NCBI GenBank assembly: GCA_037783545.1
Contig: JBBELK010000445.1
Location: forward strand, 124,001 to 188,000
Direction: 5' to 3'
Length of the DNA stretch: 64,000 nucleotides
DNA from: Henricia sp. BOLD:AAB3569
Taxonomy: Eukaryota; Echinodermata; Asteroidea; Spinulosida; Echinasteridae
Part shown: positions 342 through 53,300 of the stretch, piece by piece
Layout: each line of letters starts with the position of its first letter
Position numbering within the stretch: position 1 is the stretch's first letter
Program-made: the position numbers and the translations under genes
The notes under the pieces: model-generated
The model's input: the letters and a program-made list of their open reading frames with translations, nothing else
What the model was told of the DNA's origin: nothing
Database searches by the model: none

Positions 342-2227
342 TCCCATTTCGCGTACATGTACGTACTACCATGTAGGTAGGTACTACGTAACGTGTGTTT
401 TTTTTTGCCACACGAAAAGCATTGTTAGCGAGATTATAACTTGAAAAATGGTTAATCAATAAATTTATGTGGAGTTAATCTATAGAACTTTGACTAATAA
501 TGTTTCTTGTATTTCTGGTGCGAATAATAACTTTCGCTTTTTTTGTGAATGCTACCTATATTTATATGGACGATTCCAGAAGCTCGCCGCCGCCGCTGGT
601 TGGTTACAATTTATGAATAATTCATTACCTCCGTTGCTATTGAATTATTCAGCACAGAGATGGTAAAGGCGTCCGGGGCGAACAATCTGCTGTATGAATG
701 TTAGTCTTTCCTCAAGCGCTAGCAAAACAGTGCACAAAACAAACCTCGCCACGGACGCCTTGACTAAAGGCTAGTCCTAACGCCAAATGGGGCCTTTTTC
801 AACAGGGCCACTGTACGCAGGAGTTGGGGAGTGCGTTAAAGGGGCACTGTTGCAAGAGGATGCGTCAAACCCAACGATTTCGACACGGCAATTTATATTT
901 TTTTGAAAATACAATCGTATATAGGACATTGCAAATTTAAAAAATATATCAAATAGGTACTGTTCCACAGATAATCGAGGCCACAGTTAACATATTTGCC
1001 AGTTTAAAACCCGCCGCGTCGGGAAAATAATATTTTAAGAAGTAAATTCTTTTGAATGAAAAACAAAAACGGGTGAAATTAAAACACTGCTTGTTGGCTG
1101 TAAGTTGATCGTGTGTTGAACAGTTTATTGGCCTAAATCTCGATGGCTCAGAAATCTTCGGAAATAATCTGCAATAATGACAGATATACAACAAAAAAAA
1201 GTAAATGTCTTTACTTTTACCATCCCTGACAAAGAAAATCGCTCACACGAAGTCTGAAAGAAAAGAACTCGCAAAAAGCAAATACTGTACACCGGGCGAC
1301 TGGGGCATGCACAAAAACATATAGGACAATTAAGAGAGAAACATTTTTTAATTTGTGACATAAATTCCCCTTCCCTCCCAGTGGGTTAACATGTCAACTT
1401 CAACATGTTAAAACCAGCAGCACTGTCAGAATGATAAAATCAACACGATAAAGCGCCGAACATATATGGTGCATGTACCAGGCTATTTGCTCATAAGTGC
1501 GCGTGCGTTAAGAATAATCTACCCGTATCTGCATACAGAAGTAACGCATGCGCACTAATTTCCCCCCTTTTTCGGGGGGAGATTTGTAAAGCCACACGCC
1601 TAGCCTTTGCGATTTAGCGGCCAAACGGAAACAGGACAATCAGATGCGAAAAAATCAAACAAGTTTGATCTGCCCCAGTTGTTTGGTGTACGGTCAGACT
1701 GGCCCAATGTTTCAGCGCACACCTTTCCGGTATGTGGGCCGAAAGGCCGTTTAGCTGGTAAATTGCAGCAAAGATGTACGGCGGGGTTAAGGAACCCACT
1801 CTGAAAATCGGGCTAACCGATGAAAGTTTCACCATAAAAGATCGATAACAGAAAACTTATAATCTTTCGGAAAGAGCAACTGCTGCAACTGCTTCTAGAT
1901 TATTTACAATAATCTGCAGAAGGTTTGTATACAAAGATCGATTACAACACGACATCGCTTTGTATCGCATAAAAATGTAAATTGGAATTACTATGTATTT
2001 TTCTGCAAACAACTATATACCAAAACGTTAGATTCAAAGTGTAGGTAAAGGTTAACACATAATTATGAGATTGTTTGGACCTACAATGCATATTAAGACA
2101 GTGAGATATATTTGTTTTGCAGTACACATTCCACTTACTGTGATCCGTTATTCTGCACAGTCAGAGGACTGTATAAATTTCACAAAACTTTTGTGATTCA
2201 CAAACAGGGATTTTCTTCTATCTGTAG
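342..2227. other. Upstream region of the avidin gene, no confident gene
   Basis: No recognisable protein and no clear repeat family. A short reading frame starting at ATG 500 would encode a hydrophobic, signal-peptide-like start (MFLVFLVRIITFAFFVNA) and could be spliced in phase 1 at 602/603, but the donor (GTTACA) is poor. It is noted only as a weak candidate for the missing first exon of the avidin gene. A C-run/G-run hairpin lies at about 1561-1580. Confidence 0.4.
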
Positions 2228-2341
2228 AGTGCTCGATTTGCGGTAAGTGGTACAACGAACTTGGATCACAGATGATCATTAACGGGTCCGTAAACGGCAT
2301 CTTCTACGGAGATTACTACACTGCAGTCGGAAAGCCTGAAG
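2228..2341 (+). CDS. Avidin exon a (strands 1-3)
   Basis: Acceptor TTTTCTTCTATCTGTAG, then AG|TGC in phase 1; donor GAAG|GTGAGG. Encodes the CSIC-GKWYNELGS segment with the N12 and S16 contacts, an NGS glycosylation sequon, and the Y33/T35 equivalents in GDYYTAVG. Confidence 0.88.
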
Positions 2342-5300
2342 GTGAGGGAATATGGAACGACATAGCTATCTTCGGGAGCACCACAACGCCGCCTTTATCA
2401 TTTCATCATTTCATTCGCCAATTTCATCATTACATTCGCCAATTTCATCATTTCATTCGCCAATTTCATCATTTCATTCGCCAATTTCATCATCCATTCG
2501 CCAATTTCATTATTCCATCCGCCAATTTCATCATTCCATCCGCCAATTTTATCATTCCATCCGCCAATTTCATCAATACATTCGCAAATTTCATCATTTC
2601 ATCATTTTATTCGCTAATTTCAACGTTACATTCGCTAATTTCAACGTTACATTCGCCAATTTCAACGTTACATTCGCCAATTTCATCATTGCATTTGTCA
2701 ATTTCACGTTGCATTCGCCAATTTTACCCTTCCATTCGCCAATTTTACCCTTCCATTCGCCAATTTTACCCTTCCATTCGCCAATTTTACCCCTACATTC
2801 GCCAATTTCACCCCTACATTCGCCAATTTCATCATTACATTCACCAATTTCATCGGTTTTACATGGCGATTTGCCCTTGTTTGCTAGTAATCGATTCAAT
2901 ATTATTGGTTTTAGGAGTAATCATTGTACGCGACGAGTTCGCCGTTTCATTCTTCAGTTTCATCATGCCATGCGGCAAATTCACCGTTCCATGTGGCAGA
3001 TGTCTGGTGAACCAAAGTAAAGTAGGCCTAGGATTCAGCCTAGTAATTCAGCCTAAGATTCAGCCTTGGATTCGATATCTAAAATACATGCGCCAAAAGA
3101 TTACAAAAAGTGTGTTAATAAAAAACAAGTCAACGAATTTTTAAAACTTCGGACGACCGAATAGGAATTTCCGTTTTCTTTTGAAGAGTTGGCATCATGT
3201 TTTTTCTTCACAAACGTACACCGGAGCAACGCACCCGGCCGTGTGTGCGTTCGGGCTATTTGCCGTGCTGCGCGGGGCAAATATCCTACACTCTACGGTA
3301 GCCTGCCGTAGCACGCGCTCGCTCCCGTCTCCGGATTCTCGAAACAACTTAAACATTTATGTTCGAATTTTCATACCTATGTTCAACTTTGTTTCATACC
3401 TGTATAAATAGTCTCTCTTTTGTCAATTACTTTTAAATATTGGGGGAAATCAGAGTTGAATTTGGCGCAGTTCTGCAGTAAGAAACTTTCATGCGGCTGG
3501 ACACAAAACTAACTCGCAAGACCATGTGACTTTTCGGAACCAAAATCTGGTTCCGAAAAGTCAAGTGACCTTGAATTTTTGAAAATTGCTCAAACGGCCA
3601 AATTTGACGGCGTCTTTTCAGGATATATCTAATTTACTCTGGAAAGCACTTCAGAATAATGTATGGGTCTATTTCGAGCCCAAAATAGCCCAACAAAGCC
3701 GGTGTGTTCCTTTAACAACAACAACAACAACTGGAATCAGTAAAACTGCAATAGCCCCACGAGGTAAAAGCGGTTTTTTTTTCACGACTTTGCTTACTTG
3801 CAACATAATGACGTTTGAACTGAAAACTGCAGTACGGATGTACAGTGAAACTTGTATATAGTGGCCACCCAAGGGACCGACAAAACGTGGCCAGTATAAG
3901 CAGGTGGCCCTTATATAGAGGTTTAGCGTACACATGCAGGAATATTCAAACATCAAAAAACATACCACAGTGCATGTCTATAGTTGAAAAAGTGTATGAA
4001 AGGTTTCCTCATTAAAAAGTTGAATATTGTTCAGTTTGTTAAAGCTTTTCATAAAATTTCCCAGAGCAGCTTGATTAATTTACTGTGTGTGGCCAGATTA
4101 TCCAGGTTCAACTGCCATAGGATTGTACACACAGAAATCCTGGTGCCCTGGCCGCGTTATGGAGGGGGCCTAATATCAAGGTTCCACCTCCATATGTTTG
4201 TGTACAAACTTGTTTGGGACCAAACAAATGTGGCCACTTTAGACAGTGGCCTCTTTATAGAGGTGGTCCGAAGAGCACGTTTCACTGTACTTTCTTCAGT
4301 CCTCTCACAAACGTATGTATATCCACGTCTTTGGAAATGAACAACCTTCTTTTTTGGCCTTTAACTACACCCATTCATTAATTAGGCACTAATTAGTGGT
4401 GCGAATCAGCCGGTTCCAAATTGTTTTAAAGATATGGTAATGATCTAAAAGTTTATACTAAAAATTTGAAAATCGTAAACACAAAGGCCGGTACACTTTT
4501 TCTTTGAAGAAGACCGGTTGGCCTCAATGTGTCCGTTTCTTTTGATGATTAACACGTTTTTGCACATTTTCCCCACGTACGTAATTGGTAGTATTATTAA
4601 ACTTGTAGATTGTTTGAAATAATTATTATATTGCAAAAATGTGCATTTTTTCTGGAGTTTCAAAAATTCGTTGACTTGTTTTTTATTAACACACTTTTTT
4701 AAAAATCTTTTGGAGTATGTATTTTAGATATCGAATTATAGGATAAATCTTAGGCTGAATCCTAGTGCTGAGTTGAAATGGTACATTACCAAATGGGACG
4801 GTGAAATTGCCGCATGGCATGATGAAACTGAAGAATGAAACGGCGAACTCGTCGCGTGCAATGATTACTCGCAAAAACGAATAATATGGAATCGATTACT
4901 AGCAAACAAGGGCAAATCGCCAAGTACAACCGATGAAATTGGCGAATGTTATGATGAAATTGGCGAATGTAATGATGAAATTGGCGAATGGAAGGGTAAA
5001 ATTGGCGAATGGAGGGGTGAAATTGGCGAATGCAACGTGAAATTGACAAATGCAATGATGAAATTGGCGAATGTAATGTTGAAATTGGTGAATGTAATGA
5101 TGAAATTGGCGAATGTAATGATGAAATTGGCGAATAAGATGATGAAATTATGAAATTGGCGAATGTAAGGGTGAAATTGACGAATTTAATGATGAAATTG
5201 GCGAATGTAAGGGTGAAATTGGCGAATGGAATGATGAAATTGGCGAATGTAATGATGAAATTGGCGAATGGGATGATGAAATTGGCGAATGGATGATGAA

Positions 5301-7585
5301 ATTGGCGAATGGAATAATGAAATTGGCGAATAAAATGATAAAATTGGCGAATGAAATGATAAAATTGGCGAATGTAATGATAAAATTGGCGAATGTAATG
5401 ATGAAATTTATAAAGGCGGCGTTGTGGTACTACCGAAGATAGCTATGGCGTTCCATAAGGGAATCTATCCCACGTTTTTTATGATTGCGCACTTATAGAT
5501 TCGATTATCGATCTGATATAGCTGTTGTCATAATGTGAAAAAATATATGACTTTGCCAAAATCTATTTTCAGAGATTAGTTTTCACAACAATAGCCAAAC
5601 AATACTATTTTCTTTATCACGAGCCTGTTCAAAAAAGATAAGTTCTAGGCTGCGTTCCAAATACGCGAACGGTTTGTTAACGTTGGCGCCAACGTTTGCT
5701 CAATGTGTAATGGATTGTTTGCCAGAATACGTTGTCAAGATGGCTGCGCCCATAGTCACAGCAGTCGAACGGACGTTGCAATGTAACTCTCTGCTGCTTA
5801 CCAAATTTTTAAAGAAATGTGACACGTTACTATTGATTGTGTATTGCCAGCAATAAGGGAAAAACCACGAAAAGTGCAATTTATTTGTTATTTTCCAAAC
5901 TACAAACCATCGTCTGTCATCTTTCATGTCATGGGCGCCATTTTGAAATGACCCGCGAACATCGCGAACAACCTAAAAGTTTGTTGGCCAACGTTGGCGA
6001 ACCGTGGTGGCGCACAATTCGTTCCACTCGAAATTGTTGGCCAACAAGGTTGCCAACGTTTGCAAACGTTCGCGTATGTGGAACGCAGCCCTGGTGTTAT
6101 TTTCAGTGCCAATGGAAGGTTGGTTCGTGCTGAAAACTTGTCAAACATGGCCACGTGACGTAATGACATGTATTTACTTGTATCAATGTGGTAACACTTT
6201 AGAAGAAACACGTCGAAGCATTGTATACTGACGCATCCAATCTGTACAATACGACAGATATGAAGAAACATATGCTGATTGGTCAAAGTTCTACCGGCCC
6301 AGAGCAGCTAAGATTCGGTTTTACGGTGATATGGCCCAACGGTGGGTCAGTGACCAGCTGGACCGGTCAGTCCCTGCTTTGCGGTGACAAGCAAACGCTG
6401 ATGACCACGTGGATTCTGACGTCAAAGGTTTCCAAATGTGACGATAACTGGAAGGCAAATAGGTAAACTCTGAAACGAACATAATAAACACGCATTGTTT
6501 ACTTTAAAGGCACAGGCTCGTCAGCAAAGCGCGCGCGCCAAATTCGTGCCACCAAATACGCAGCTCCATGTCAAAGGCATGGAGCTAGCTGCGTATTTCG
6601 TGGCACGAATTTGGCGCGCGCGCATTGCTGACGAGCCTGTGCCTTCAATCAAATGGCGTGACCCTTGAGCTCATGGCAGCCACCAAAATTACGACGTGCA
6701 CATGTCACCTTTTGTCAGATGGTGCTTTCGTAATTGTTACGTCTGCAATGGAATTTTGACCGACCGGTCACTTTGTTCCTGTTTTCCATACATTTTGGTT
6801 TAAAAATGACATTGTGGTGAGATTGCCTTTGATTAAATAAATGTGTGCATTCGCAGAGGCCCATGGGGTTGGATGACAAAAATTGCCAGCGAAGTGTGCG
6901 TAAACTCGGCAAATTGTTTAAACCTATTTTCACGCGAACGTTGCAAACGTTTGCAACGTTCGCCAACAACAGGTACCCGGCTTTCCATAGATGAGTGCAC
7001 ACAAGCTAAAAGTCAAAGTTGTAAGGACGTTTTGTGTACGGGTTTCCCGTCGGTTTGTTGCTACGACGGGAATTCCAATGATTTCTGGCCAGTATGCCTG
7101 GTATGCTATCTACTACACGACATCGGCTTTAACTTTACTGTATTATCACTTTAAGATGACGAAAAGGAGGTGCAATTTTGGAAGTGGGAGGAACCCCTCG
7201 GAGAAATCTCCTGAGAAACCAACGCAGACGAGTATAGGGAAATGAGGCCTTCCCTTCATAGGCTTAGGCACACTTTCTTGGCAATGTTTGCCATACAATC
7301 CCACGAGTCTTTGCGAATGCAAAACAAGAAGCGCTTGGATTTGAAGAGAGAGGCCTTTAGATCCAGATTCGGATTCCATGTGCATGTGTGCATTTTAAAT
7401 CTCTCCAAACTTTAAAAAACATAATTATTTCCAATTTACCTTCTGTCTCGCAAAGGATTGGTCAGGACATTTTCACACGCACCAAGGTAAAGGATGGGTC
7501 CGGTCGGAAGGGCAACACCCATAACCCACGTGAGTTTGCCCGCCATCTCGAACAAGAAGAGATAGACGATCAGCTGGATTTGTAA
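2228..7585 (+). CDS. Avidin-family biotin-binding protein (three visible exons; first exon missing)
   Basis: Exons 2228-2341, 6258-6462 and 7456-7585 join in phases 1-1-2-stop with GT/AG borders (GAAG|gtgagg, cgacag|AT, AATAG|gtaaac, cgcaaag|G). The joined frame reads like an avidin barrel: CGKWYNELGSQM, FYGDYYTAVG, FGFTVIWPNGGSVTSWTGQ, TTWILTSKV, DDNWKANRIGQDIFTRTKV. Compared with chicken avidin, the biotin contacts N12, S16, Y33, T35, W70, S75, T77, W97, L99 and W110 are all present. N118 is D, as in streptavidin. F72 and S73 are replaced and C83 is S, so the C4-C83 disulfide of avidin cannot form the same way; other cysteines exist (CSIC, LLC, KC). A roughly 30-residue charged tail follows the last strand. 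The product is presumably secreted, but the signal exon was not found. The incoming phase of 1 would also fit an upstream EGF exon, as in sea-urchin fibropellins. Family assignment is strong; exon 6258 start and 3' tail are less sure. Confidence 0.88.
2396..2860. repeat. 21-bp minisatellite, left arm of FB1
   Basis: About 20 copies of a 21-bp unit (CATTCGCCAATTTCATCATT plus one base) with single-base variants and some 18-bp units. Units are contiguous, with no spacers. Confidence 0.9.
3843..4287. mobile_element. Tc1/mariner-like MITE nested in FB1
   Basis: Ends CAGTGAAAC... and ...GTTTCACTG, flanked by TA on both sides (3841-3842, 4288-4289). Both subterminal regions carry a GTGGCCAC motif and an 'AGAGGT' block. 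A fragment of the same family lies at about 59400-59925. No transposase frame. Confidence 0.7.
4918..5408. repeat. 21-bp minisatellite, right arm of FB1 (inverted)
   Basis: The same 21-bp unit as in the left arm, read as ATGATGAAATTGGCGAATGTA, more than 20 copies with 18-bp and 15-bp variants. The unit order differs from the left arm, so the arms are not a perfect mirror. Confidence 0.9.
5648..6090. mobile_element. 443-bp MITE in the avidin intron
   Basis: Terminal inverted repeats of about 24 bp: GGCTGCGTTCCAAATACGCG at the left, CGCGTATGTGGAACGCAGCC at the right. The interior has several GCCAACGTTTGCAAACGTT-type palindromes. A solitary related stretch lies at about 6930-6975. Confidence 0.75.
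6258..6462 (+). CDS. Avidin exon b (strands 4-7)
   Basis: Chosen acceptor is cgacag at 6257, with a TACTGAC branch-point-like motif about 28 nt upstream. It gives a loop length close to that of streptavidin (GKPED-MKKHMLIGQ...FGF). An alternative acceptor at 6218 keeps phase but adds 13 residues. Carries W70, S75, T77, W97, L99 and W110 equivalents. Donor AATAG|GTAAAC. Confidence 0.88.
6507..6645. mobile_element. Near-perfect palindromic MITE (139 bp), copy 1
   Basis: AAGGCACAGGCTCGTCAGCA at the left and its complement at the right, arms of about 62 bp joined by a short loop in CCATGTCAAAGGCATGG. A second copy is at 16559-16700. It lies in the avidin intron between exons b and c. Confidence 0.85.
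7456..7585 (+). CDS. Avidin exon c (last strand, C-terminal tail, stop)
   Basis: Acceptor CCTTCTGTCTCGCAAAG with a good pyrimidine tract. The first base completes the AGG codon split from exon b, giving NRIGQDIFTRTKV. A possible further donor (ACCAAG|GTAAAG at about 7486) would end the coding differently; read-through gives a 30-residue polar tail ending DDQLDL and a TAA at 7583. Confidence 0.85.
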
Positions 7586-7978
7586 CATGGGGATGACTAC
7601 GTGCAAGACATTAACTTAATTTCCATCTATATTTGAGCAACCGATAACAAGATCTACTGGCAAAACAGTCCAGAATTTGGTTTTATAACAATTGTAAACG
7701 TTAAAAAAATATGAAAAACATAATTTTGTAATGAATAGAATAGTAAGCGTCGAATATTGATAATCACAGTACGTATCCATACTTTAGGACGCGACGCGAG
7801 TCACGCGACAGCAGCTTTCATCTGTGCGCACGCGCGAAAACCCATCTACAAGTGCCCAAAATCATGCAAATGAGGTGGCTTAAACCACGCAAATATGCAA
7901 ATGGTGCCCAAAACTATGTAAATGAGGGTGCCCAAAACTATGATAATGAGAAGGCGCGACCGGCCTCCGTTTCCTATC

Positions 7979-8103: not shown

Positions 8104-8280
8104 TTGTTGTTAATAGAAATATGTGGCGTGACGTCACCGGAAAGCAATCAATATACGAGATCGCAGCTATTCGATGATACGTCGTGCAGCATATGTTGGT
8201 TTCGTACAACACCAGTCCTGTTTTATTCAAACCGTTTTGTGATTAATACGAACGTTTTCAGATGTGTGATTATACTTAAC

Positions 8281-8320
8281 GGTGGTGGTGGTGGTGGTGG
8301 TGGTGGTGGTGGTGGTGGTG
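8281..8320. repeat. (GGT)n microsatellite
   Basis: Thirteen uninterrupted GGT units. Apparent polyglycine/polythreonine frames here are not genes. Confidence 0.95.
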
Positions 8321-8896
8321 CACACATGTAAGCAAACCGTGACGTCATTATGGCCTAGGTCTTTTACTAAGTTAAACATGATACACATTTGGAATTTTGC
8401 CTTATTATAATTTTCACTCAGATCTTTGAAACGATACGAGCAAACACGCATCCTTCATATTTGTTACAAAACAAAGGTATTTTCTGAAGACCCTTGATGT
8501 GTCTCTGTTTAAGTATTTTGAGATTCCTGTCAAGTTCAAGTAGTCGTATAACTATATCTTGGTGGAGGTTTTTGAATTTCAGCTTGATCTTTTGTCCTGT
8601 GTTTGGTTTCAAATAAAGACATTGTTTGTTGCATTGAATCTTACCTTGTGCTGGTAAACTTGTTAAAGAGGAAAAAACTACAGCCACACCCCTCTAACAA
8701 AATATAATAAATAAAATAGAAAAACAGGATATAAATGTATCCATCATAATCATCAACTAACATCAGCAACTGCGAATATCCCACTGCTTAATTAATCATT
8801 TCCTTATACAGGTCTATCAATTGTCCGTGTATTTCACCAAACTTTTCTCTTGGAAAAGTTTGTGATTCACCAACAGGGATTTTCTTCTATCTGTAG
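8321..8896. other. No recognised gene
   Basis: AT-rich sequence. A lysine-rich 89-residue minus-strand frame (8418-8687) matches nothing I recognise. From about 8824 the text is intron-like sequence shared with 2180-2227, upstream of avidin exon a. Confidence 0.5.
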
Positions 8897-8970
8897 AGTG
8901 CTCGATTTGCGGTAAGTGGTACAACGAACTTGGATCACAGATGATCATTAACGGAGAATACTGCACTGCA
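8897..8970 (+). pseudogene. Duplicated, broken avidin exon a
   Basis: Starts after the same acceptor (CTATCTGTAG) as the real exon and is identical to it from AGTGCTCG to ATCATTAACGG. It then lacks 24 nt (8 codons, removed in frame between two ACGG repeats), resumes at AGA-TACTGCACTGCA with changes, and loses homology at about 8970. The deletion removes the GSVNGIFY segment, so no barrel could form. The homologous upstream intron is also present, so this was a DNA-level duplication rather than retroposition. Confidence 0.85.
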
Positions 8971-19490: not shown

Positions 19491-19560
19491 AAGACAGGGT
19501 TCTCGAGGCATAATTCACAGTTGTACTCGTGAGTCAGTAGACGAAACAACGTGATACATA

Positions 19561-21106
19561 ATGGGTCCCAGGTTATCTTTGGTTTGTGTGCTGATGCTGT
19601 TTCTGCATCTGAAAGGCGGCCATGCTGTGGGGGAAAAGACCACATGGTTCCGCCAAAATGACGGCATCACACACTGTGTTCGTTTGAGCAACCCCAGCGG
19701 TGTCCACGCGGACCTGTCTATGTTGCAGTGCAGCGAAAAATGTGCATGGGACGATGGCTGCTTCTCATTCAGTTATTCGGACCCCCAGAGACAGTGTGAA
19801 CTGACCGGGGCTTCGGGGATGTTGATCCCACCTGTACCTAAAGGAAGTTTTGTTACTTTTTACCACACGTCGCAGGAGGTAAGTTGAAATGGGAAATAGT
19901 TGAGTAGTTGACCATGGCTTCGTACGCGGTGTTCAAAACGTATGGATAACTGCAGAAATCTGGGGTACTTGTGAGAATTCTTCCCACTCCTAAACTTGGG
20001 TTTTACATCAAATTACTGCACTTACTAAAAAGCTTTCCATAGCAACAGCTGATTTTTAAAATAATCAACTTTCCAATTATAGCTAGTTTTAAGTGTCCTT
20101 GGGCCTACCGCGGTGTCATTGGTCGTCGTGGATGTGCTAATTCGACGCTTCATAGGTCTTTTTTTTATTTAAATTTTTTTTCCAGGAAATTGTTCTTGAT
20201 TTAGTCTAATGAAACACCAGTAGTTTGTCGATATCCGCGCCAATATTTTGCTTTCCTTTTTTTTCTACAGGGTGTCGTTCTCGAAAAACTTTCCGTCATC
20301 AAAACTAAAGGTAAGATTATGCTAAAAATACAGCCAAGGGGTCGATTTCACGTGGGAATTTTTTTACAGGTATTGGGGTTTCTGTATGTCGTCGGCACGC
20401 CGATGTTTCCTTTTTTAAATTCCATGCTATATATGGGCCTATCGCATTTCTAGTTCTGCATCCCCAATAAAACCCATGCCAATTTTCCTTTTATCCAAAT
20501 TGTCTTTTGCCCCCAACTTAATTAGGTCTACCTAGTACTGGACTCACTGGAAGCACTTTCGACACGCAAGCTTTGGCCGCTGCCGAGTGTGAAGGCTCTC
20601 TACACTTGTGCGAGCTGTGGGAAATTCAGGCGATCGTCGAAGGCAACACTGCGGAACTACCCGAGAACACGGACATGTGGTACGCTGTGGCGGATAGTCA
20701 AGCCGTGGTCACCGGTGTGGACGTGACTCAACACGGCCTACCGATGGTCAAGCCTTCGCCCGGTGTTTGCTGCCCAGGGCGTCAACTCGACCCAAAAGAC
20801 CCCATCGCCACCGAGGAGTCTTTTTCGCGCAATGACCGCGAGGCGCAGGCAGGCGCTTGCGCCATTCTGGCCGCTCATCCGTGCACCTTTGCGGAGTTGA
20901 AGGCGGCCCACTTGAGGGGCTTTAGCATGAATGACTGGTCGTACTTTGCGAAGCCAGATCGTGACGCCACACTGTATTCCGGCAGCAATGGCTGTGGCAG
21001 ATACAGTTTTAAGCCAAACGAGTGTTACGAAGGGACCGTGGCAAACACACCAAGATCGGATGCTTCCGCGACGGTCGTTTGTTGTCCAAACATTTACGGT
21101 GCTTAA
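19561..21106 (+). CDS. PAN/apple-like secreted protein, copy 1
   Basis: Exons 19561-19878, 20271-20310 and 20526-21106 (phases 0 and 1) give 312 aa. Residues 1-22 are a signal peptide (hydrophobic LSLVCVLMLFLHL). Residues 25-105 resemble a PAN/apple domain (CSEKCAWDDGCFSFSY...QRQCEL). The 40-nt exon encodes GVVLEKLSVIKTK. The last exon encodes a domain not recognised, with two halves each ending in a CCP motif (VCCPGRQ, VVCCPN). PAN domains bind protein or carbohydrate; a secreted recognition or structural role is inference. Intron 2 is only 215 bp because about 470 bp present in copies 2-4 are deleted. Copy 1 has one extra codon (KGG for NG) and eight replacements in exon 1 relative to copy 2. 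Confidence 0.87.
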
Positions 21107-29648: not shown

Positions 29649-29714
29649 AAGACAGGGTTCTGGAGGCATTACAGTTGTACTCGTGAGTCAGCAGACGAAA
29701 CAACGTGATACATA

Positions 29715-31736
29715 ATGGGTCCCACGTTATCTTTGGTTTTTGTGCTGATGCTGTTTCTGCATCTGAACGGCCATGCTGTGGGGAAAAAGACCACATGGTT
29801 CCGCCAAAATGACGGCATCACACACTGTATTCTTTTGAGCAACCCCAGCGGTGTCCACGCGGACCTGTCTATGTTGCAGTGCAGCGAAAAATGTGCATGG
29901 GACGATGGCTGCTTCTCATTCAGTTATTCGGACCCCCAGAGACAGTGTGAACTGACCGGGGCTTCGGGGATGTTGCTCCCACCTGTACCTGAAGGAAGTT
30001 TTGTTACTTTTTACCACACGTCGCAGGAGGTAAGTTGAAATGGGAAATAGTTGAGTAGTTGACCATGGCTTCATACGTGGTGTTCAAAACGTATGGATAA
30101 CTGGAGAAATCTGGGGTACTTGTGAGAATTCTTCCCACTCCTAAACTTGGGTTTTACATCAAATTACTGCACTTACTAAAAAGCTTTCCATAGCAACAGC
30201 TGATTTTTAAAATAATCAACTTTCCAATTATAGCTAGTTTTAAATGTCCTTAGGCCTACCGCGGTGTCATTGGTCGTCGTGGATGTGCTAATTCGACGCT
30301 TCATAGGTCTTTTTTTTTATTTAAATTTTTTTCCAGGAAATTGTTCTTGATTTAGTCTAATGAAACACCAGTAGTTTGTCGATATCCGCGCCAATATTTT
30401 GCTTTCCTTTGTTTTTTACAGGGTGTCGTTCTCGAAAAACTTTCCGTCATCAAAACTAAAGGTAAGATTATGCTAAAAATACAGACAAGGGGTCGATTTC
30501 ACGAAGCGCAATAACCATCCTTCGTAACTCGAGATGCACTATACGGTTGTTTCACACGGAGCCTTTTCGCGCGTAAATTCGACATGCGCGTCGCTTTGAG
30601 AAAGAGCTGCGTGGAGGGAATTCGGAGTGAAAATATTCACTAAAAATCGCAGCACTTCGCACCCAAGTTGACTCTGTCGTTTTCAGTGTGTCGTTTCATT
30701 CCAAATTCTCCCCCTTTTCAAAGCGACGCGTGACGTGGAATTTTTGCGCGAAAAGGCTCTGTGTGAATCCAGCCTTGCCCGTCGTATGGTGCTTACGAAG
30801 GATCGTAGAACACTTATATTGTAATTGCCACCAATAGTAAAAACCCAAGGTTGACAAAGCCGGGTAACGTTTCATAATTTCCCACACTCGTGGCCGAGGA
30901 AACGCCCATACATGTTCGCAGATTAACACAAGCAAAAATAAACCATTTGGGAATTTGTTTACAGGTATTGGGTTTCTGTATGTCGTCGGCACGCCGATGT
31001 TTCTATCTCAAATTTTCCAACGTGATCCTCGTACGTTTTTTAAATTTTAAATTCCATGCTATATGAGCCTATCGCATTTCTAGTTCTGCATCCGCAATAA
31101 AACCCATGCCAATTTTCCTTTTATCAAAATTGTCTTTTGCCCCCAACTTAATTAGGTCTACCTAGTACTGGACTCACTGGAAACACTTTCGACACGCAAG
31201 CTTTGGCCGCTGCCGAGTGTGAAGGCTCTCTACACTTGTGCGAGCTGTGGGAAATTCAGGCGATCGTCGAAGGCAACACTGCGGAACTACCCGAGAACAC
31301 GGACATGTGGTACGCTGTGGCGGATAGTCAAGCCGTGGTCACCGGTGTGGACGTGACTCAACACGGCCTACCGATGGTCAAGCCTTCGCCCGGTGTTTGC
31401 TGCCCAGGGCGTCAACTCGACCCAAAAGACCCCATCGCCACCGAGGAGTCTTTTTCGCGCAATGACCGCGAGGCGCAGGCAGGCGCTTGCGCCATTCTGG
31501 CCGCTCATCCGTGCACCTTTGCGGAGTTGAAGGCGGCCCACTTGAGGGGCTTTAGCATGAATGACTGGTCGTACTTTGCGAAGCCAGATCGTGACGCCAC
31601 ACTGTATTCCGGCAGCAATGGCTGTGGCAGATACATTTTTAAGCCAAACGAGTGTTACGAAGGGACCGTGGCAAACACACCAAGATCGGATGCTTCCGCG
31701 ACGGTCGTTTGTTGTCCAAACATTTACGGTGCTTAA
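29715..31736 (+). CDS. PAN/apple-like secreted protein, copy 2
   Basis: Exons 29715-30029, 30422-30461 and 31156-31736; 311 aa. Same layout as copy 1: signal peptide, PAN-like domain, linker exon, double CCP-ending C-terminal domain. The last exon differs from copy 1 at only two of 581 positions (S to N, S to I). Intron 2 (694 bp) carries a GCCTTTTCGCGCG MITE at 30545-30774 and a phase-compatible 66-nt stretch (30965-31030) that could be an optional exon. Promoter block is directly downstream of the 4.28-kb insertion, so distal regulatory DNA is displaced by about 4.3 kb relative to copies 1 and 3. Confidence 0.87.
30545..30774. mobile_element. GCCTTTTCGCGCG MITE in intron 2 of copy 2
   Basis: Ends GGTTGTTTCACACGGAGCC and GGCTCTGTGTGAATCCAGCC, with CTTTTCGCGCG/GCGCGAAAAG next to them. 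Present in degraded form in copy 3 (about 36820-37005) and copy 4 (51210-51365); relatives at about 27925 and 61925. Confidence 0.8.
30965..31030 (+). other. Candidate optional exon in intron 2 (copy 2)
   Basis: TTTACAG acceptor, 66 nt without a stop in the required phase, and a GTACGT donor. Inserting it keeps frame and would add 22 residues (starting IGFLYVVGTPMF) between the linker and the last exon. The same stretch is intact in copy 3 (37218-37283), broken by a frameshift in copy 1 (about 20371) and ends in a stop in copy 4 (57061). Either an alternative exon under weak constraint or a decaying one. Confidence 0.4.
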
Positions 31737-35919: not shown

Positions 35920-35992
35920 AAGACAGAGTTCTCGAGGCATAATTCACAGTTGTACTCGCGAGTCAGCAGACGAAACATTAACGTGATACATA

Positions 35993-37987
35993 ATGGGTCC
36001 CAAGTTATCTTTGGTTTTTGTGCTGATGCTGTTTCTGCATCTGAACGGCCATGCTGTGGGGGAAAAGACCGCATGGTTCCGCCAAAATGACGGCATCACA
36101 CACTGTGTTCTTTTGAGCAACCCCAGCATTGTCCACGCGGACCTGTCTATGTTGCAGTGCAGCGAAAAATGTGCATGGGACGATGGCTGCTTCTCATTCA
36201 GTTATTCGGACCCCCAGAGACAGTGTGAACTGACCGGGGCTTCGGGGATGTTGCTCCCACCTGTACCTGAAGGAAGTTTTGTTACTTTTTACCACACGTC
36301 GCAGGAGGTAAGTTGAAATGGGAAATAGTTGAGTAGTTGACCATGGCTTCATACGTGGTGTTCAAAACGTATGGATAACTGGATAAATGGAGTACTTGTG
36401 AGAATTCTTCCCACTCCTAAACTTGGGTTTTCCATCGAATAACTGCACTTGCTGAAAAGCTTTCCAACAGTTGATTTTTTTTTTTAAAATAATAAACTTT
36501 TCAATTATAACTTGTTTTGAATGTCGCTTAGGCCTACCGCGGTGTCTTTGGTCGTCGTGGATGTGGTAATTCGACGCTTCATAGGTATTATTTTTTTTTA
36601 AAGGTTTTTTTTTCCCAGGAAATTGTTTTTAAAAGTTAGCCTAATGAAACGCCAGTAGTTTGTCGATATCCGCGCCATTATTCTGCTTTCCTTTGTTTTT
36701 TACAGGGTGTCGTTATCGAAAGACTTTCCGTCATCAAAACTAAAGGTAAAATATTATACTAAAATTACAGACAAGGGGTCGATTTCACGAAGCGCTATAA
36801 CGATCCTTCCTAACTCGTAAGCGCGTCGCTTTGAGAAAGAGCTGCGTGGAGGGAATTCGGAGTGAAAATATGCACTAAAAATCGCAACACTTCGCAACCA
36901 AGTTGATTCTGTTGTTTTCAGTGTGTCGTTTCATTCCAAATTCCCCACCTTTTCAAAGCGACGCGTGTGGATTTTTTGCGCGAAAAGGCTCAGTGTGAAT
37001 CCAGCCTTGCCCGTCGTAAACGTATGGTGCTTACGAAGGATCGTACGCTTAGATACAAGTTGAAACTACCTATATTGTAATTGCCACTAGTAAAATCCCA
37101 AGGTTGACGAAGCCGGGTAACGTTTCATAATTTCCTACACTCGTGGCCGAGGAAACGCCCATATATTTTCGCAGATTAACACAAGCAAAAATAAACCATT
37201 TGGGAATTTGTTTACAGGTATTGGGTTTCTGTATGTCGTCGGCACGCCGATGTTTCTATCTCAAATTTTCCAACGTGATCCTCGTACGTTTTTTTTTTTT
37301 AATTCCATGCTATATGGGCCTATCGCATTTCTAGTTCTGCATCCCCAATAAAACCCATGCCAATTTTCCTTTTATCCAAATTGTCTTTTGCCCCCAAATT
37401 AATTAGGTCTACCTAGTACTGGACTCACTGGAAACACTTTTGACACTCGAGCTTTGGCCGCTGCCGAGTGTGGAGGATCTCTACACTTGTGCGAGCTGTG
37501 GGAAATTCAGGCGATCGTCGAAGGCAACACTGCGGAACTACCCGAGAACACGGACATGTGGTACGCTGTGGCGGATAGTCAAGCCGTGGTCACCGGGATG
37601 GACGTAACTCAACACGGCCTACCGATGGTCAAGCCTTCGCCCGGTGTTTGCTGTCCAGGGCGTCAACTCGACCCGAAAGACCCCATCGCCACCGAGGAGT
37701 CTTTTTCGCGCAATGACCGCGAGGCGCAGGCAGGCGCTTGCGCCATTCTGGCCGCTCATCCGTGCACCTTTGCGGAGTTGAAGGCGGCCCACTTGAGGGG
37801 CTTTAGCATGAATGACTGGTCGTACTTTGCGAAGCCAGGTCGTGACGCCACACTGTATTCCGGCAGCAATGGCTGTGGCTCATACAGTTTTAAGCCAAAC
37901 GAGTGTTACGAAGGGACCGTGGCAAACACACCAAGATCGGATGCTTCCGCGACGGTCGTTTGTTGTCCAAACATTTACGGTGCTTAA
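35993..37987 (+). CDS. PAN/apple-like secreted protein, copy 3
   Basis: Exons 35993-36307, 36706-36745 and 37407-37987; 311 aa. The linker exon reads GVVIERLSVIKTK (two changes). In exon 1, SGVHA is SIVHA, as in copy 4. The last exon differs from copy 2 at about 13 codons, roughly half silent. Intron 2 (661 bp) keeps the degraded GCCTTTTCGCGCG MITE and the intact 66-nt candidate exon (37218-37283). Its 3' flank is the one shared with the relic at 13658. AATAAA lies at 38557-38562. Confidence 0.87.
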
Positions 37988-40248: not shown

Positions 40249-41790
40249 TTAGGCTACGTCCATCCGCTGTCGAATGAAGCCCTCCTCATGACGTTTCCAA
40301 TCACTTCTGTTTCTGGCCGTCCTAGTCCAAGTCGCTGTTCCCATATACGTAGTTATATCATCTCTCCATCTTTTCTTTGGTCTTCCTCTCCTTCGCTTTC
40401 CCATTCGTGGTTGCCAATCTGTTAATCTGCCTGTCCATCTATTATCCTGAATTCTTGCTACATGTCCTGCCCATCTCCATTTTGCTTCGTTTACTTTCTC
40501 TATGACATCTTTCACCCCAGTTTTCTGCCGAATTACTTCATGTTTTACTCTATCTCGTAGGGATAAGTGTAGCATCTGTCTTTCCATAGCTCTCTGTGCT
40601 GTTGTGAGTTTCTGTTCAAGTTCACTTCACTTCTGTTTCTGGCCGTCCTAGTCCAAGTCGCTGTTCCCATATACGTAGTTATATCATCTCTCCATCTTTT
40701 CTTTGGTCTTCCTCTCCTTCGCTTTCCCATTCGTGGTTGCCAATCTGTTAATCTGCCTGTCCATCTATTATCCTGAATTCTTGCTACATGTCCTGCCCAT
40801 CTCCATTTTGCTTCGTTTACTTTCTCTATGACATCTTTCACCCCAGTTTTCTGCCGAATTACTTCATGTTTTACTCTATCTCGTAGGGATAAGTGTAGCA
40901 TCTGTCTTTCCATAGCTCTCTGTGCTGTTGTGAGTTTCTGTTCAAGTTCTTTAGTTAATGACCAAGTTTCTGATCCATAAGTCATAGTGGATAGCACACA
41001 CTGATTGAATAGTCTCTTCCTTAGTGATATTGGCAATTTGTTGTCTGTTAGCATGTCTTTGTGTTGACCAAATTTCATCCACCCTGCTTTGATTCTCATC
41101 ATCACCTCTTCTCTCGTGGTGTCCTTCATTTTCAGTGTCTGTCCAAGGTACTTATAGTTGTTCACCTTCTCTAGTTTCCGTCCCTCTATTTCTATGTCTT
41201 CCTGGGTCTCAAAGTTTGTCATGTACTTTGTTTTGTCTTTATGCATGGTTAAGCCAATTAGCTTGCTTTCTTTGTTTAAGCTGGATAGCTGCTCATCCAT
41301 ACCTTTAATAGTTGTTGAAATCATTGCCACATCATCAGCGAATCGAAGGTCTGTGAGAGGTTCTCCGTCAATATTAACACCATTATCCAAGTCTGTCTTT
41401 CTAAACACTTCCTCTATAGTTGTAGTAAATATCTTTGGAGAAAGCGTGTCGCCCTGCCTTACGCCTCTCTGGATGTTGACAGTCCTGGATACATCGTTGT
41501 CAATATAAATACGGGCAGTTGCATCAGTATAAATGTCTTCTAGAATTCGGACATATCCTTCATCAACATTCACCTTTCTCAAGGCCTCGAACATGGCAGA
41601 ATGTTCTACAGAGTCGAATGCCTTCTGGTATTCGACAAATCCTAGGCACAGTTGGAGTTGGTATTCACAAGCCTTTTCAATCAGTTGATTGATTGCATGT
41701 AGGTGGTCTGTTGTTGAGAAGCCAGCTCTGAAACCAGCTTGTTCTCTTGGTTGGTTGTCGTCGAGCTGTGTCTTACTGACAAGCCATTAA
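40249..41790 (-). mobile_element. RTE-type LINE, 5'-truncated, with reverse transcriptase
   Basis: The minus-strand frame carries reverse transcriptase motifs: QAGFRAGFSTTDHL, a FVEYQKAFDSV box (usually FVDF.KAFDS), RGVRQGDTLSPK, the catalytic FADD, and YLGQTL. The C-terminus has HVARIQDNRW...RGRPKKRWRDDI, typical of RTE-like endonuclease-RT proteins. The endonuclease domain and the first RT blocks are missing; a stop closes the frame just upstream (about 41792). A 326-bp tandem duplication (40302-40627, 40628-40953) repeats the last 110 or so codons and shifts the frame of the first copy. It ends RQRMDVA and a TAA at 40249. Not autonomous. Confidence 0.88.
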
Positions 41791-49000: not shown

Positions 49001-50286
49001 AAACAATGACCCAAATTGTGACAAAATATACATCAATCGAAAGAGGAAGAATTATTCTACAAACTTACCCCGCCATCTTGGCCACCAACTACTCGTTAAA
49101 AACGCATGCGAGCAACGAAATAAGGCCAACGAAATCTCGCGAACATCCCGGACTTTCTCGCGGCGCGTTCACGCCAATGAGCTGTGCAGATAAAATTGGG
49201 CATTTGACCTCATTATCGGGGGCGCTGCGGACTGACTGTTCATATGCATAAGTTAAACAGTTAACGTATATCGTTGGGATTTAGGTACAACGGTCCTGTT
49301 CGTGCAGTCTTTCATATGCAGGTTTGGGTGAACCAATGACGCGCATCGTCTCCACCACTTATTTCGTTGAATTCAATATTCATGTTGAATTCAATATTCA
49401 TGTAAAGTCCGTAAGCATAAAAACACTCAAAGCAAAGCGCCTACCGAATTTCAAAGAAAAGCCGTTTTCCTCATATATATACAAAAGGTAAGAGTTGAGA
49501 AGTTGATCAGATTGTTTTTCTTTTAAAATGAGTCATCGTCATCAAGCATCAGGGAAATATTACCACGCACTGATACCCTTAGAGACCCCATGCGCTAAAC
49601 GCTAAACGACCCCAAAAGTTTTTCTTTAGTAAATTCATGACACTTTGGTATTGCCCTCCTAATTTTGCGTTTTTTATCATCAAACTAACACTTTTACAAT
49701 GTTTATGTTTCATAACAAGGAAAATCCTGGGTGTCCGTGCATGATAATGAATCCAGTATTGGAAAGTGCAGAGTTGGAAAGTGCAAATTTGAAGATTTTA
49801 CGAGGAAACAATTTTTGTAAAGCCTGCCTCGTATGTTTTGTACACAAGGTGTAAAGCCATGATGGACTACGCTATTCAATTATTTCCTAAAATCAATGGG
49901 TAGTAACAAAGCTTTATGAACGAAGATACTGCTGCAGGATTATCGACTATATTTGTTCTGCAAGTATCAACATCTTTGCATTTTTTACCCCGCGTGCTGC
50001 ATGCAGCGCGTTAATCCACGTACACGCTACATGCAGGTTACATCAGTTTAGTCATTCATGACATGAATTTAACACGGGGCGTGTCGCAATGCGCGTACGT
50101 CATTGGAGGGCTTTCGAGTACTAGTATACCGTCTATATTGTATAGCGGGAAATTTTATTGGATGGCCGTCGTCTACGGTCACTACACGGTTCAAAACGAA
50201 AGAACACTAGTACGACGTTTGCCTGTCCGTTTTGGAATTCCTGCATGCTTGGCTGATAAAACATAAATAAAATACCGCTAAAAATG
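46079..50286. other. Gene-free region upstream of copy 4
   Basis: A dispersed repeat with GTTAAACCGTTAACATAC...GGTCCTGTTCGTGGATTC...GATGTACCGTTGACGCGCACC recurs at 46080-46150, 46198-46330 and 49240-49345, with a remnant at 43620-43690. CGAGTTG minisatellites lie at 48379-48440 and 48618-48680, and an (ACGT)n palindrome at 48726-48757. The 142-residue frame at 46275-46703 starts inside the repeat and has no domain. Confidence 0.5.
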
Positions 50287-50294
50287 TATATAAG
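50287..50294 (+). promoter_or_regulatory. TATA box of PAN-like gene 4
   Basis: TATATAAG, 81 bp before the ATG. Upstream similarity to the other promoters stops about 30 bp before the box (near AAAATACCGCTAAAA), so only the core promoter was retained. Confidence 0.7.
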
Positions 50295-50367
50295 AAGACA
50301 GGGTTCTCGAGGCATTATTTACAGTTGTATTAATGAGTCAGTAGACGAAACATTAACGTTATACATA

Positions 50368-53300
50368 ATGGGTCCCACGTTATCTTTGGTTTTTGTGTTG
50401 ATGCTGTTTCTGCATCTGAACGGCCATGCTGTGGGGGAAAAGACCACATGGTTCCGCCAAATTGACGGTATCACACACTGTTTGCTTTTGAGCAACCCCA
50501 GCATTGTCCACGCGGACGTGTCTATGTTGCAGTGCAGCGAAAAATGTGCATGGGACGATGGCTGCTTCTCATTCAGTTATTCGGACCCCCAGAGACAATG
50601 TGAACTGACCGGGGCTTCGGGGATGTTGCTCCCACCTGTACCTGTAGGAAGTTTTGTTACTTTTTACCACACATCGCAGAAGGTAAGTTGAAATGGGAAA
50701 GAATTAAGTAGTTGGCCATGGCTAATTCATACGTTGTGTTCAAAACCTATCGATAACTTCAGAAATTTAGAGTACTTGTGAGAATTCTTCCCACTCCTAA
50801 AGTTGGGTTTTCCATCAAATTACTGCACTTACTAAAAAGCTTTCCATAGCAACAGCTGATTTTTAAAATAATCAACTTTTCAATTATAGCTCGATTTGAA
50901 TGTCGCTTAGGCCTACCACGGTGTCTTTGGTCGTCGTGGATGTGGTAATTCGACGCTTCATAGGTCTTTTTTAAAGGGTTTTTCCCCCAGGAAATTGTCC
51001 TCGATTTAGCCTAATGAAACACCAGTAGTTTGTCGATATCCGCGCCATTATTTTGCTTTCCTTTGTTTTGTTTTACAGGGTGTCGTTCTCGAAAGACTTT
51101 CTGTCATCAAAACTAAAGGTAAGATTATGCTAAAAAAATACAGACAAGGGGTCGATTTTACGAAGCGCTATAACGATCCTTCGTAAGTCGAGATGCACTA
51201 CTGTGGTTTCACACCGAGCCTTTTCGCGCGTAAATTCGACATGCGCGTGGAGAGAATTCGGAGTGAAAATATGCACTAAAAATCGCAACACTTCGCACCC
51301 AAGTTGATTCTGTCGTTTTTAGTGTGTCGTTTCATTACATATTCCCCACCTTTTTAAAGCGACGCATTGTTTTCGACAGCGACCATAGAGCTACAGCGAC
51401 CAACAAGACCTAGTTGAAGTGAGCCGCCGATTCGGCCAAATACGCGAGCGGCGTGCTCATTTAGCCGCCGATTCAGCCGCACATTCGAAAATGATGTAAA
51501 ATCAGAATACATACACCACAGGACGTTTGCCATCCGGGACTAAAAGTCTGAACAGTTTCCTCATTTTCCTACATGTCTCAACAGACTCTTCTTTAACTTA
51601 AAAAAACTTATCATTGAGTTTGATCCAGGACACAACTAATTTTGCTTTTGGCTCCAGCCACTCATTAATCAGTACCTAATTAAAGTTTTAAAGGGACCCT
51701 TCCCCAAGTAGCTGAAAATTAAATATTCTTTATTGTGTCCGCATTACAAAAAATACAGAAAATTGTCCTCCATTGGCAATTATAAACAACATACATCTCA
51801 ACAATAAAAATATAGAAGATACACACCAATTGCACACTCTACCTATAGTTTAAAAAAAAACAAAAACAAAAACCAATTATTTGTAACTCGGTGTACACAG
51901 AACAAAATATTATTATAGTTTGACTAATGAGTTAAAGAAATATATTGAGTTTGGAACAAACGGAGTGTTTTTGTTTGTGGTGGACGAAGTCGAAAACCTG
52001 AACGATTATAAACAAAACAGTTAAAAAGTGGATGAGTTGGGTCTTTCATTATTGTGTTTAGTTTAGCAGCCATTTGTGTTTCTAAGTGTGTATCCAGGGA
52101 AGGCAAGACTGAGCCAATAACACGCTGAGCAATTTTCTTTATCCGTTCAATTTTCATCTTGTTCTGTTGAGTAAGTGAGCTAAATGTGCATATGAGATTA
52201 AAGGTCAGCACACTTTGTATCAAGGACTGATAAAATAAGCACAAGATAGTACGGTCAACTTTGAATTTCTTAAGTTTCCTTAAAAAATACAAACGTTGAT
52301 TAGCTTTACTATACACAGTTCTGTGTTCCTAGTCCAGTTCAGTTTATCATCCACTACAGTACCAAGATACTTATATTCACTGACTCTTTGTACTATATAC
52401 GCTCATTTATCGTAAATGGTTCATAGGCCTGTCTTTAAACGCACGTCTTTAAAACAATTGTTTTCTTTTTTGTACAAATGTATAACTTTTCATGCATTTT
52501 CTAATAGATTCTACTCCCGGGCACACTTACTTTTGGTTTCAGCCTCAGCCGCAAATTATTTACTACCTAATTAAGGAGTTAAAGGGACCTTTTAGCTACA
52601 CTATGTGCATGTCTCGCTGGCGCAGTAGTTGGAGCAATTCTCCATCAAGCCATGGTATAGTGCCGCTTCGAGCACGCTTGGATTTGATTGGAGCATTAAT
52701 AACAGCCATAAAAATCGAGTGCCACATAAACCACGCTTCGTCAACATGTTGACATTTAAGAACATACTCCCATAAGCCTTTTTGAAGTATGGCTGCCTTA
52801 TAGAGGGCGCCCTTTGATTTGGGTAAAATAAACCAAAATGGCCGACGCTTGTACGTACGTTTGTGCGGGTGGGTGTACGTTTACATTTTTACTGACGGCT
52901 AAAGCCGCCTTTTTTAGTGCTTAATTACGGTAATGGACGGGTTAAAGATACTCATTTATCTACGGCACAGGGTATGTGTTAATCTGGCTGATTTAACCCA
53001 GCATTAAGGCATAGGCTGCGCCTAGCCCGTGGCCTACCCAACGCGCGCACGGTCATATCAAAATGATGGACACATGCAAAGGAAACCGACCCAAGTTGGG
53101 CTAGGCCTAGTGAAACTTAAGAATTTCTGCAAGCCTTGGTCTACTCTATAACGTGCTATGTTTTTGCCTAAAGCCTTAGCTTAGTAGGGCCTATTTTAAC
53201 TAGCTAAACGCTATGACTGTTTCCCAAACGACCAATCAGTGTGTTATGTTTTAATCTGTGTCTTTTGGCTCTTTTAATTATAGTCCAGATGAATAATGCA

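Follow-up and report, generated by a model that had tools for sequence, protein, structure and literature searches.

Does this stretch of starfish DNA hold a working avidin gene, and of what kind? The window, by which we mean the whole stretch of 64,000 nucleotides that was analyzed, covers positions 124001–188000 of contig C445 (JBBELK010000445.1) of Henricia sp., within an assembly of 740.7 Mb (labelled G000). The original prediction, which was made from the letters alone, described an avidin-like barrel spread over 5.4 kb with nearly all of its biotin contacts conserved. We rebuilt the exons, compared the product to known avidins, and compared the gene to its relatives in the same genome.

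Structure of the gene

The features in and around the gene are as follows, with positions in the window and a slash at each splice cut.

2228–2341, + strand: avidin exon 1 (CSICGKWYNELGSQMIINGSVNGIFYGDYYTAVGKPE); acceptor CTGTAG/, donor GAAG/GTGAGG, phase 1 at both ends; the phases are shared with the paralog on contig C209
6258–6462, + strand: avidin exon 2 (DMKKHMLIGQ...NWKANR, last codon split), which carries W70, S75, T77, W97, L99, and W110
7456–7585, + strand: avidin exon 3 (IGQDIFTR, D118, a C-terminal tail some 30 residues long, and a TAA stop), as supported by the spliced product, the profile search, and the comparison with C209
1600–2227, + strand: block 5' of exon 1, with 92% identity to C209 over query positions 4–628
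2351–5457, no strand assigned: inverted-repeat element of 3.1 kb, with minisatellite arms (ATTCGCCAATTTCATCATT-like) and AGGGAA on both flanks
8866–8960, + strand: partial duplicate of the start of exon 1 (CSICGKWYNELGSQMIING, then unrelated sequence), which is a fragment

The outer coordinates that had been predicted were exact: 2228 is the first base past the exon-1 acceptor and 7585 is the last base of the stop codon. The three exons also join in phase, as predicted, but the boundary of exon 2 had to be corrected. We moved its acceptor to 6258 (CAATACGACAG/AT) for two reasons: an acceptor at 6203 is out of phase and runs into stops, and the cut in the C209 paralog falls at the corresponding place (CAATACGCAG/). 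Another acceptor that keeps the frame, at 6219, lies in a poor context. Within the three exons, there is no in-frame initiator codon ahead of the avidin domain, so a 5' exon outside of these three is needed.

The wide spread of the gene is mostly due to the 3.1 kb element in intron 1. This element begins 9 bases into the intron and leaves the donor intact. At the corresponding site, C209 has a single AGGGAA, which is an empty site. The end sequence of the element has at least 38 further matches in the genome (the listing covered 40 of the 72 candidates, and two of these 40 are the window locus and its copy on contig C1). Some of the further matches, among those listed, are inverted pairs that lie several kilobases apart. 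The outer end (about 52–61 bases) is 95–100% identical in other listed matches, on C372, C164, C84, C2, and other contigs. Intron 2 contains a short inverted-repeat insert (6502–6648), which has a relative upstream of the C209 gene and matches in both orientations. Also, part of the block upstream of exon 1 (about 1604–1794) resembles a dispersed repeat, mostly at 81–82% identity.

Elsewhere in the window, we saw an array of secreted-protein exons as open frames (19555–21103, 29709–31733, 35987–37984, 50260–50688, and 57244–57822). An exon with a signal peptide and a PAN domain occurs at 19555, 29709, 35987, and 50260 (PF00024, 8.5e-6 for the first copy), and an exon of 193–194 residues with no Pfam match occurs at 20522, 31152, 37403, and 57244. 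Copies one to three closely resemble one another, and the copy at 57244 is less similar. On the minus strand, 40548–41786 is a reverse transcriptase open frame (PF00078, 1e-22), which is a fragment of a retroelement.

Family membership and the biotin pocket

Against the Pfam family for avidin (PF01382, with a cut-off of 24 bits), the corrected spliced protein scored 113.1 bits (E = 1.3e-32) across profile positions 2–116 of 116, or the entire domain. The version with a longer exon 2 scored less (103.3 bits), and the C209 paralog matched the family with E = 2.4e-34. We also searched the PDB, using figures from the best 60 of 163 distinct matching sequences. Leaving aside engineered multi-domain constructs, the nearest among the matches listed were chicken avidin and its variants (1vyo, E = 1.9e-21), and next among the matches listed were xenavidin (3.9e-20), BBP-A (8.4e-17), and single-domain streptavidins (from 6.7e-17). 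Both searches gave matches far better than expected by chance and support the prediction of an avidin-family gene. The window protein scores closer to vertebrate avidins than to streptavidin: chicken avidin reached 79.7 bits in the PDB search, versus about 60–65 bits for single-domain streptavidins. The score against the streptavidin equivalog from NCBIfam (NF047623) was 72.5 bits, below its cut-off of 300 bits. In our alignment, the protein is 44% identical to chicken avidin and 34% identical to streptavidin, which is as expected of a distant avidin and agrees with the prediction that it is distinct from both. We conclude that this is a true avidin gene and a new member of a known family.

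The avidin barrel has eight strands. We considered 19 contact positions, in the numbering of chicken avidin. The window protein has the same residue as chicken avidin at 12 of these (N12, L14, S16, Y33, T35, V37, W70, S75, T77, W97, L99, and W110) and is unlike chicken avidin at positions 38, 39, 40, 72, 73, 79, and 118. Its W79 and D118 are as in streptavidin. All ten of the pocket residues that had been named were found in the alignment, and the predicted streptavidin-like aspartate at 118 was correct. The C209 paralog also retains all 12 of the chicken-like contacts and agrees with the window gene at 15 of the 19 positions. One claim did not stand: PNGGS had been described as an altered L3,4 loop, but it comes after W70, that is, in the loop past strand 5 (by strand numbering). 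The L3,4 stretch is instead GKPEDMKKH.

The cysteine pattern has changed, as had been claimed, by the loss of C83 and the gain of C7. In chicken numbering, the window protein has C4, C7, C86, and approximately C105, while C209 and two EGF-linked avidin domains from the same genome have C4, C83, C86, and approximately C105. Because position 83 of the window protein is a serine, the classic C4–C83 disulphide is without one of its partners. The retained pocket residues suggest that the protein would bind biotin, as was predicted.

Avidin loci across the genome

A Pfam search of the genome scored 12 candidates, and the 9 matches listed are on C445, C1, C209, and C767. A protein search with the C209 product, for which 14 of 15 candidates were listed, led to the same four contigs, and the last three matches were weak.

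C1 has a near-identical copy of the C445 locus (99.8% identity over a block of 10.6 kb), with additional sequence at several places, including a further 4 kb. Because the three exons do not differ between C445 and C1, these copies give no allelic evidence on selection. C209 has three open avidin exons with the same phases as in the window, without the intron-1 insert, and the homology between the window and C209 is confined to 1585–7773.

C767 encodes two avidin domains behind EGF repeats, as in fibropellins. Ahead of these domains, we found 4 EGF patterns in 10.0 kb fetched and 7 in 7.4 kb fetched. In these two domains (C767a and C767b), the pocket tryptophans W70 and W110 are replaced, the first by R and the second by R or K. 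In contrast, both the window gene and C209 have tryptophan at 70 and 110, and a regular-expression search for EGF patterns came up empty on C445 (22 kb), C1 (30 kb), and C209 (20 kb). Because these two genes keep both tryptophans and have no EGF pattern nearby, we consider them to be of the stand-alone kind.

We also looked at the mitochondrial contig of this assembly (C2104; 16,221 bases). Its COX1 has AAA at an expected Asn and ATA at an expected Ile, in what we take to be conserved motifs. Echinoderms and flatworms use this code (genetic code table 9), and the presence of fibropellin-type genes makes an echinoderm the likelier of the two. Amphioxus had also been considered as a source and was rejected. 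On C955, COX1 occurs three times at a spacing of 16,221 bases, which is the length of C2104. This triplet is probably a concatemer of the mitochondrial genome that was made in assembly.

Divergence of the barrel exons between paralogs

The window gene and its C209 paralog have the same residue at 99 of 148 aligned codons (72 of 115 in the domain). At the nucleotide level, they differ at 23/112 bases in exon 1 (20.5%), 43/205 in exon 2 (21.0%), and 11/130 in exon 3 (8.5%). For noncoding sequence, we forced seven segments to align and found 167 differences in 1869 positions (8.9%), in an alignment that takes in a stretch of intron 2 of non-homologous look. In six noncoding blocks selected by BLAST similarity, the differences were 3.4–9.6%. 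Of the 246 nonsynonymous sites in exons 1 and 2, about 62 differ, and a Fisher test of this proportion against the 167/1869 noncoding differences gave p = 8e-12.

A counting method gave dN = 0.233 and dS = 0.104, for a ratio of 2.25 (bootstrap 95% interval 1.26–4.72; P(dN ≤ dS) = 0.001 from 2000 bootstraps). The ratios by exon were 7.5, 2.3, and 0.7 (0.72) for exons 1, 2, and 3, and exon 1 has just one synonymous change. By likelihood, dN/dS was 2.86 for all 148 codons (p = 0.0076), 3.87 for the 115 codons of the domain (p = 0.0024), and 3.17 for the 106 domain codons that remain without an indel loop (p = 0.013), with no excess of amino-acid change in the C-terminal tail (omega = 1.30, p = 0.77); these p values are from four fits and are uncorrected for multiple testing. 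The selection result as a whole is for one paralog pair, with 148 codons and about 9 synonymous changes. The barrel-coding exons have diverged beyond the introns, which is a sign of pressure to change.

The excess might reflect selection to alter the surface of the barrel while the pocket is kept. Of the 19 pocket positions, 4 have changed, versus 39 of 96 in the rest of the barrel. This contrast is not significant (one-sided Fisher test, p = 0.086), which leaves "pocket kept, surface changed" as an interpretation of the data and not a test that was passed. For the EGF-linked pair (C767a and C767b), omega was 0.04 over 107 codons; because t was 5.69 and synonymous sites are saturated, we take this value simply as a sign of purifying selection.

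Fast exons do not seem to be a general trait of avidins, because in the chicken avidin family, the divergence of exons only is about that of introns only, according to an excerpt of the source (PMC1082904), unlike the window/C209 pair.

Could the amino-acid excess be a statistical accident, or the outcome of relaxed constraint together with gene conversion that held the introns and synonymous sites alike? The numbers are small (with so few synonymous changes), flanking regions can appear young because of conversion tracts, and the six noncoding blocks were picked for their similarity. On the other hand, relaxation alone cannot bring dN to a level higher than the intron rate, the differences in exons 1 and 2 amount to 20–21% of bases compared to 3–10% in neighbouring blocks or 8.9% in the forced alignment, and the likelihood estimate is still well above 1 (omega = 3.17, p = 0.013) without the indel loop. 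We therefore think that accident or conversion is unlikely, and we prefer pressure to change as the explanation.

Putative sources of the signal peptide and the 3' end

We found no phase-1 signal exon in the conserved block at 1600–2227, either by eye or by script, and none within the homology shared with C209 (1585–7773). A scan of 32 kb upstream on C445 for a signal peptide followed by a phase-1 donor gave one match, and the same exon was the sole match in 41 kb upstream on C1. This candidate, MKGFVCLVLACVGVALCK at C445:116487–116541, has the donor GTAAGT, lies 9.7 kb upstream of the avidin exons, and is a strong prediction. It has 8 more relatives, evenly divided between C139 and C756. We followed three of these relatives, and each has the signal exon, then cysteine-rich modules (such as GQYSYYCDPSPGYCRPGTYCEVSVGRCLPLSRRSEEK), and then a terminal coding exon; the 3' sequences of two of them contain AATAAA. 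By homology, the candidate signal exon belongs to another gene family. On C139 and C756 (L035–L040), this family consists of small, cysteine-rich secreted proteins whose module exons are repeated and which bear a weak, sub-threshold resemblance to Dickkopf_N (E = 0.027). In one comparison of this family to C445, an intron was 85% alike and the match stopped at the exon boundary.

The window also has a trace of this family downstream of the avidin exons:

8177–8789, + strand: pieces like the 3' end of the cysteine-rich secreted-protein family, with AATAAA at 8612, by homology to C139 and C756, where the coding exons are open

On both C445 and C1, the locus around the avidin exons has an open signal exon and one module exon, whose reading frame is incompatible with that of the signal exon. 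A protein search around these exons found no further modules and no terminal coding exon. The avidin exons thus lie within a decayed cysteine-rich gene, whose strand they share and whose phase they fit. Because the sole strong signal exon found upstream lies in this decayed locus, the avidin signal may be borrowed. A borrowed signal exon seems plausible, and the avidin gene may use the 3' end of the cysteine-rich gene as well as its signal exon. Between the avidin stop in the window and 8612, there is no AATAAA or ATTAAA, whereas C209 has ATTAAA 111 bases past its stop.

C209 does not share this arrangement, as the signal exon of C445 has no match there in 30 kb at the nucleotide level or in 20 kb at the protein level. 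In the 21.8 kb upstream of the C209 gene, the signal candidates were weak (3 among the matches listed). The best one (MKVIILLLIGLTSS..., 6.4 kb upstream) has a donor score of 3.9, and we found no second copy of it in the genome.

These observations lead us to speculate, tentatively, about a chimeric origin. An avidin block with no signal exon or poly(A) end of its own might have landed in a gene for a cysteine-rich secreted peptide, on the same strand and with matching phase, and taken over its signal exon and 3' end as the modules of the host gene decayed. The result would be a chimeric secreted avidin, with the surface of its barrel under diversifying selection and its pocket fixed. We consider this possible but doubtful. 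If true, such a pattern would be expected for a protein engaged in an arms race against microbes.

Alternative explanations for the locus

The explanation that we favour, with good confidence, is a secreted stand-alone avidin gene with the three exons in the window and at least one 5' exon outside them, probably with a signal peptide, whose product most likely sequesters extracellular biotin for defence or egg protection. The mature protein is predicted to be an avidin barrel with three pocket tryptophans, 12 of 19 contacts as in chicken avidin, and the tail of about 30 residues. It would be secreted by way of the upstream exon MKGFVCLVLACVGVALCK. We infer biotin binding, oligomer state, and biological role from the sequence, and a secreted biotin-sequestering protein of defence or of the egg is likely.

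Another view of the locus is that these exons are a transposed or stranded segment with no usable 5' exon, that is, a dead or dying copy. The homology to C209 does end at 1585 and 7773 with no signal exon found inside; intron 1 has taken up a 3.1 kb element, and the C1 copy another 4 kb; a partial exon duplicate lies downstream; no polyadenylation motif of either form precedes 8612, whereas C209 has one close to its stop; and the cysteine-rich locus around the avidin exons has decayed. Yet the three exons are open and are identical in two assembled copies, the splice sites and core contacts are intact, and even the donor next to the insert is preserved. Also, a dead copy is expected to have dN near dS, and the changes instead concentrate at amino-acid-changing sites. 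We consider a dead copy to be quite unlikely, and the gene is probably functional. It seems more improbable still that the domain has lost biotin binding and works as a module for structure or adhesion, like the fibropellins of sea urchins. According to an excerpt of the source, fibropellins do not bind biotin (PMC8033661), and this genome has two such genes. But the same excerpt describes chicken avidin with W110 changed to K and W70 changed to R, with fibropellin as the template, and biotin binding was virtually abolished (PMC8033661). The window gene and C209 keep both of these tryptophans, and no EGF pattern was found in the stretches that we searched around them or around the C1 copy. The secreted stand-alone avidin remains our preferred reading.

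Comparison with known avidins

The window gene has the avidin domain and the core contacts in common with chicken AVD and AVR and with BBP-A and BBP-B. It differs from chicken avidin by D118, W79, the loss of C83, the gain of C7, and a longer C-terminal tail. Chicken avidin genes have four exons and three introns, according to an excerpt of the source (PMC1082904); the window gene would match this layout if the upstream signal exon belongs to it and is the sole extra exon.

Amphioxus (Branchiostoma japonicum) Bjavd1 and Bjavd2 are likewise avidins of invertebrate deuterostomes, from another phylum, and we liken them to the window gene by description only. Strongavidin is presumably a sea urchin protein. 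It is counted among the verified avidins in an excerpt of a published source (PMC8033661). The sea urchin fibropellins have the same domain, and the two EGF-plus-avidin loci on C767 are of this type; the window gene differs from fibropellins in having W70 and W110 and in having no EGF pattern nearby. Streptavidin shares D at 118, W at 79, and Y at 11 with the window protein, but the identity is just 34% and the equivalog score is below the cut-off.

Among the titles and abstract openings listed, in which subscription papers (older work on chicken avidin-related genes among them) were mostly not represented, we found no report of an avidin dN/dS ratio greater than 1. An excerpt of a 2026 paper on fish avidins states that dN/dS could yet reveal diversifying or purifying selection on avidin genes (PMC13425791).

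What role avidins play in animals is not settled, and this pair of paralogs provides one dN/dS test from outside the vertebrates. Within one genome, we see a barrel that changes faster than its introns while the core contacts are kept, alongside EGF-linked copies that lack the pocket tryptophans at 70 and 110. What merits following is the excess of amino-acid change in the barrel. If orthologs confirm it, then the defence hypothesis would gain an evolutionary signature, and the sites that are changing would point to what the protein meets.
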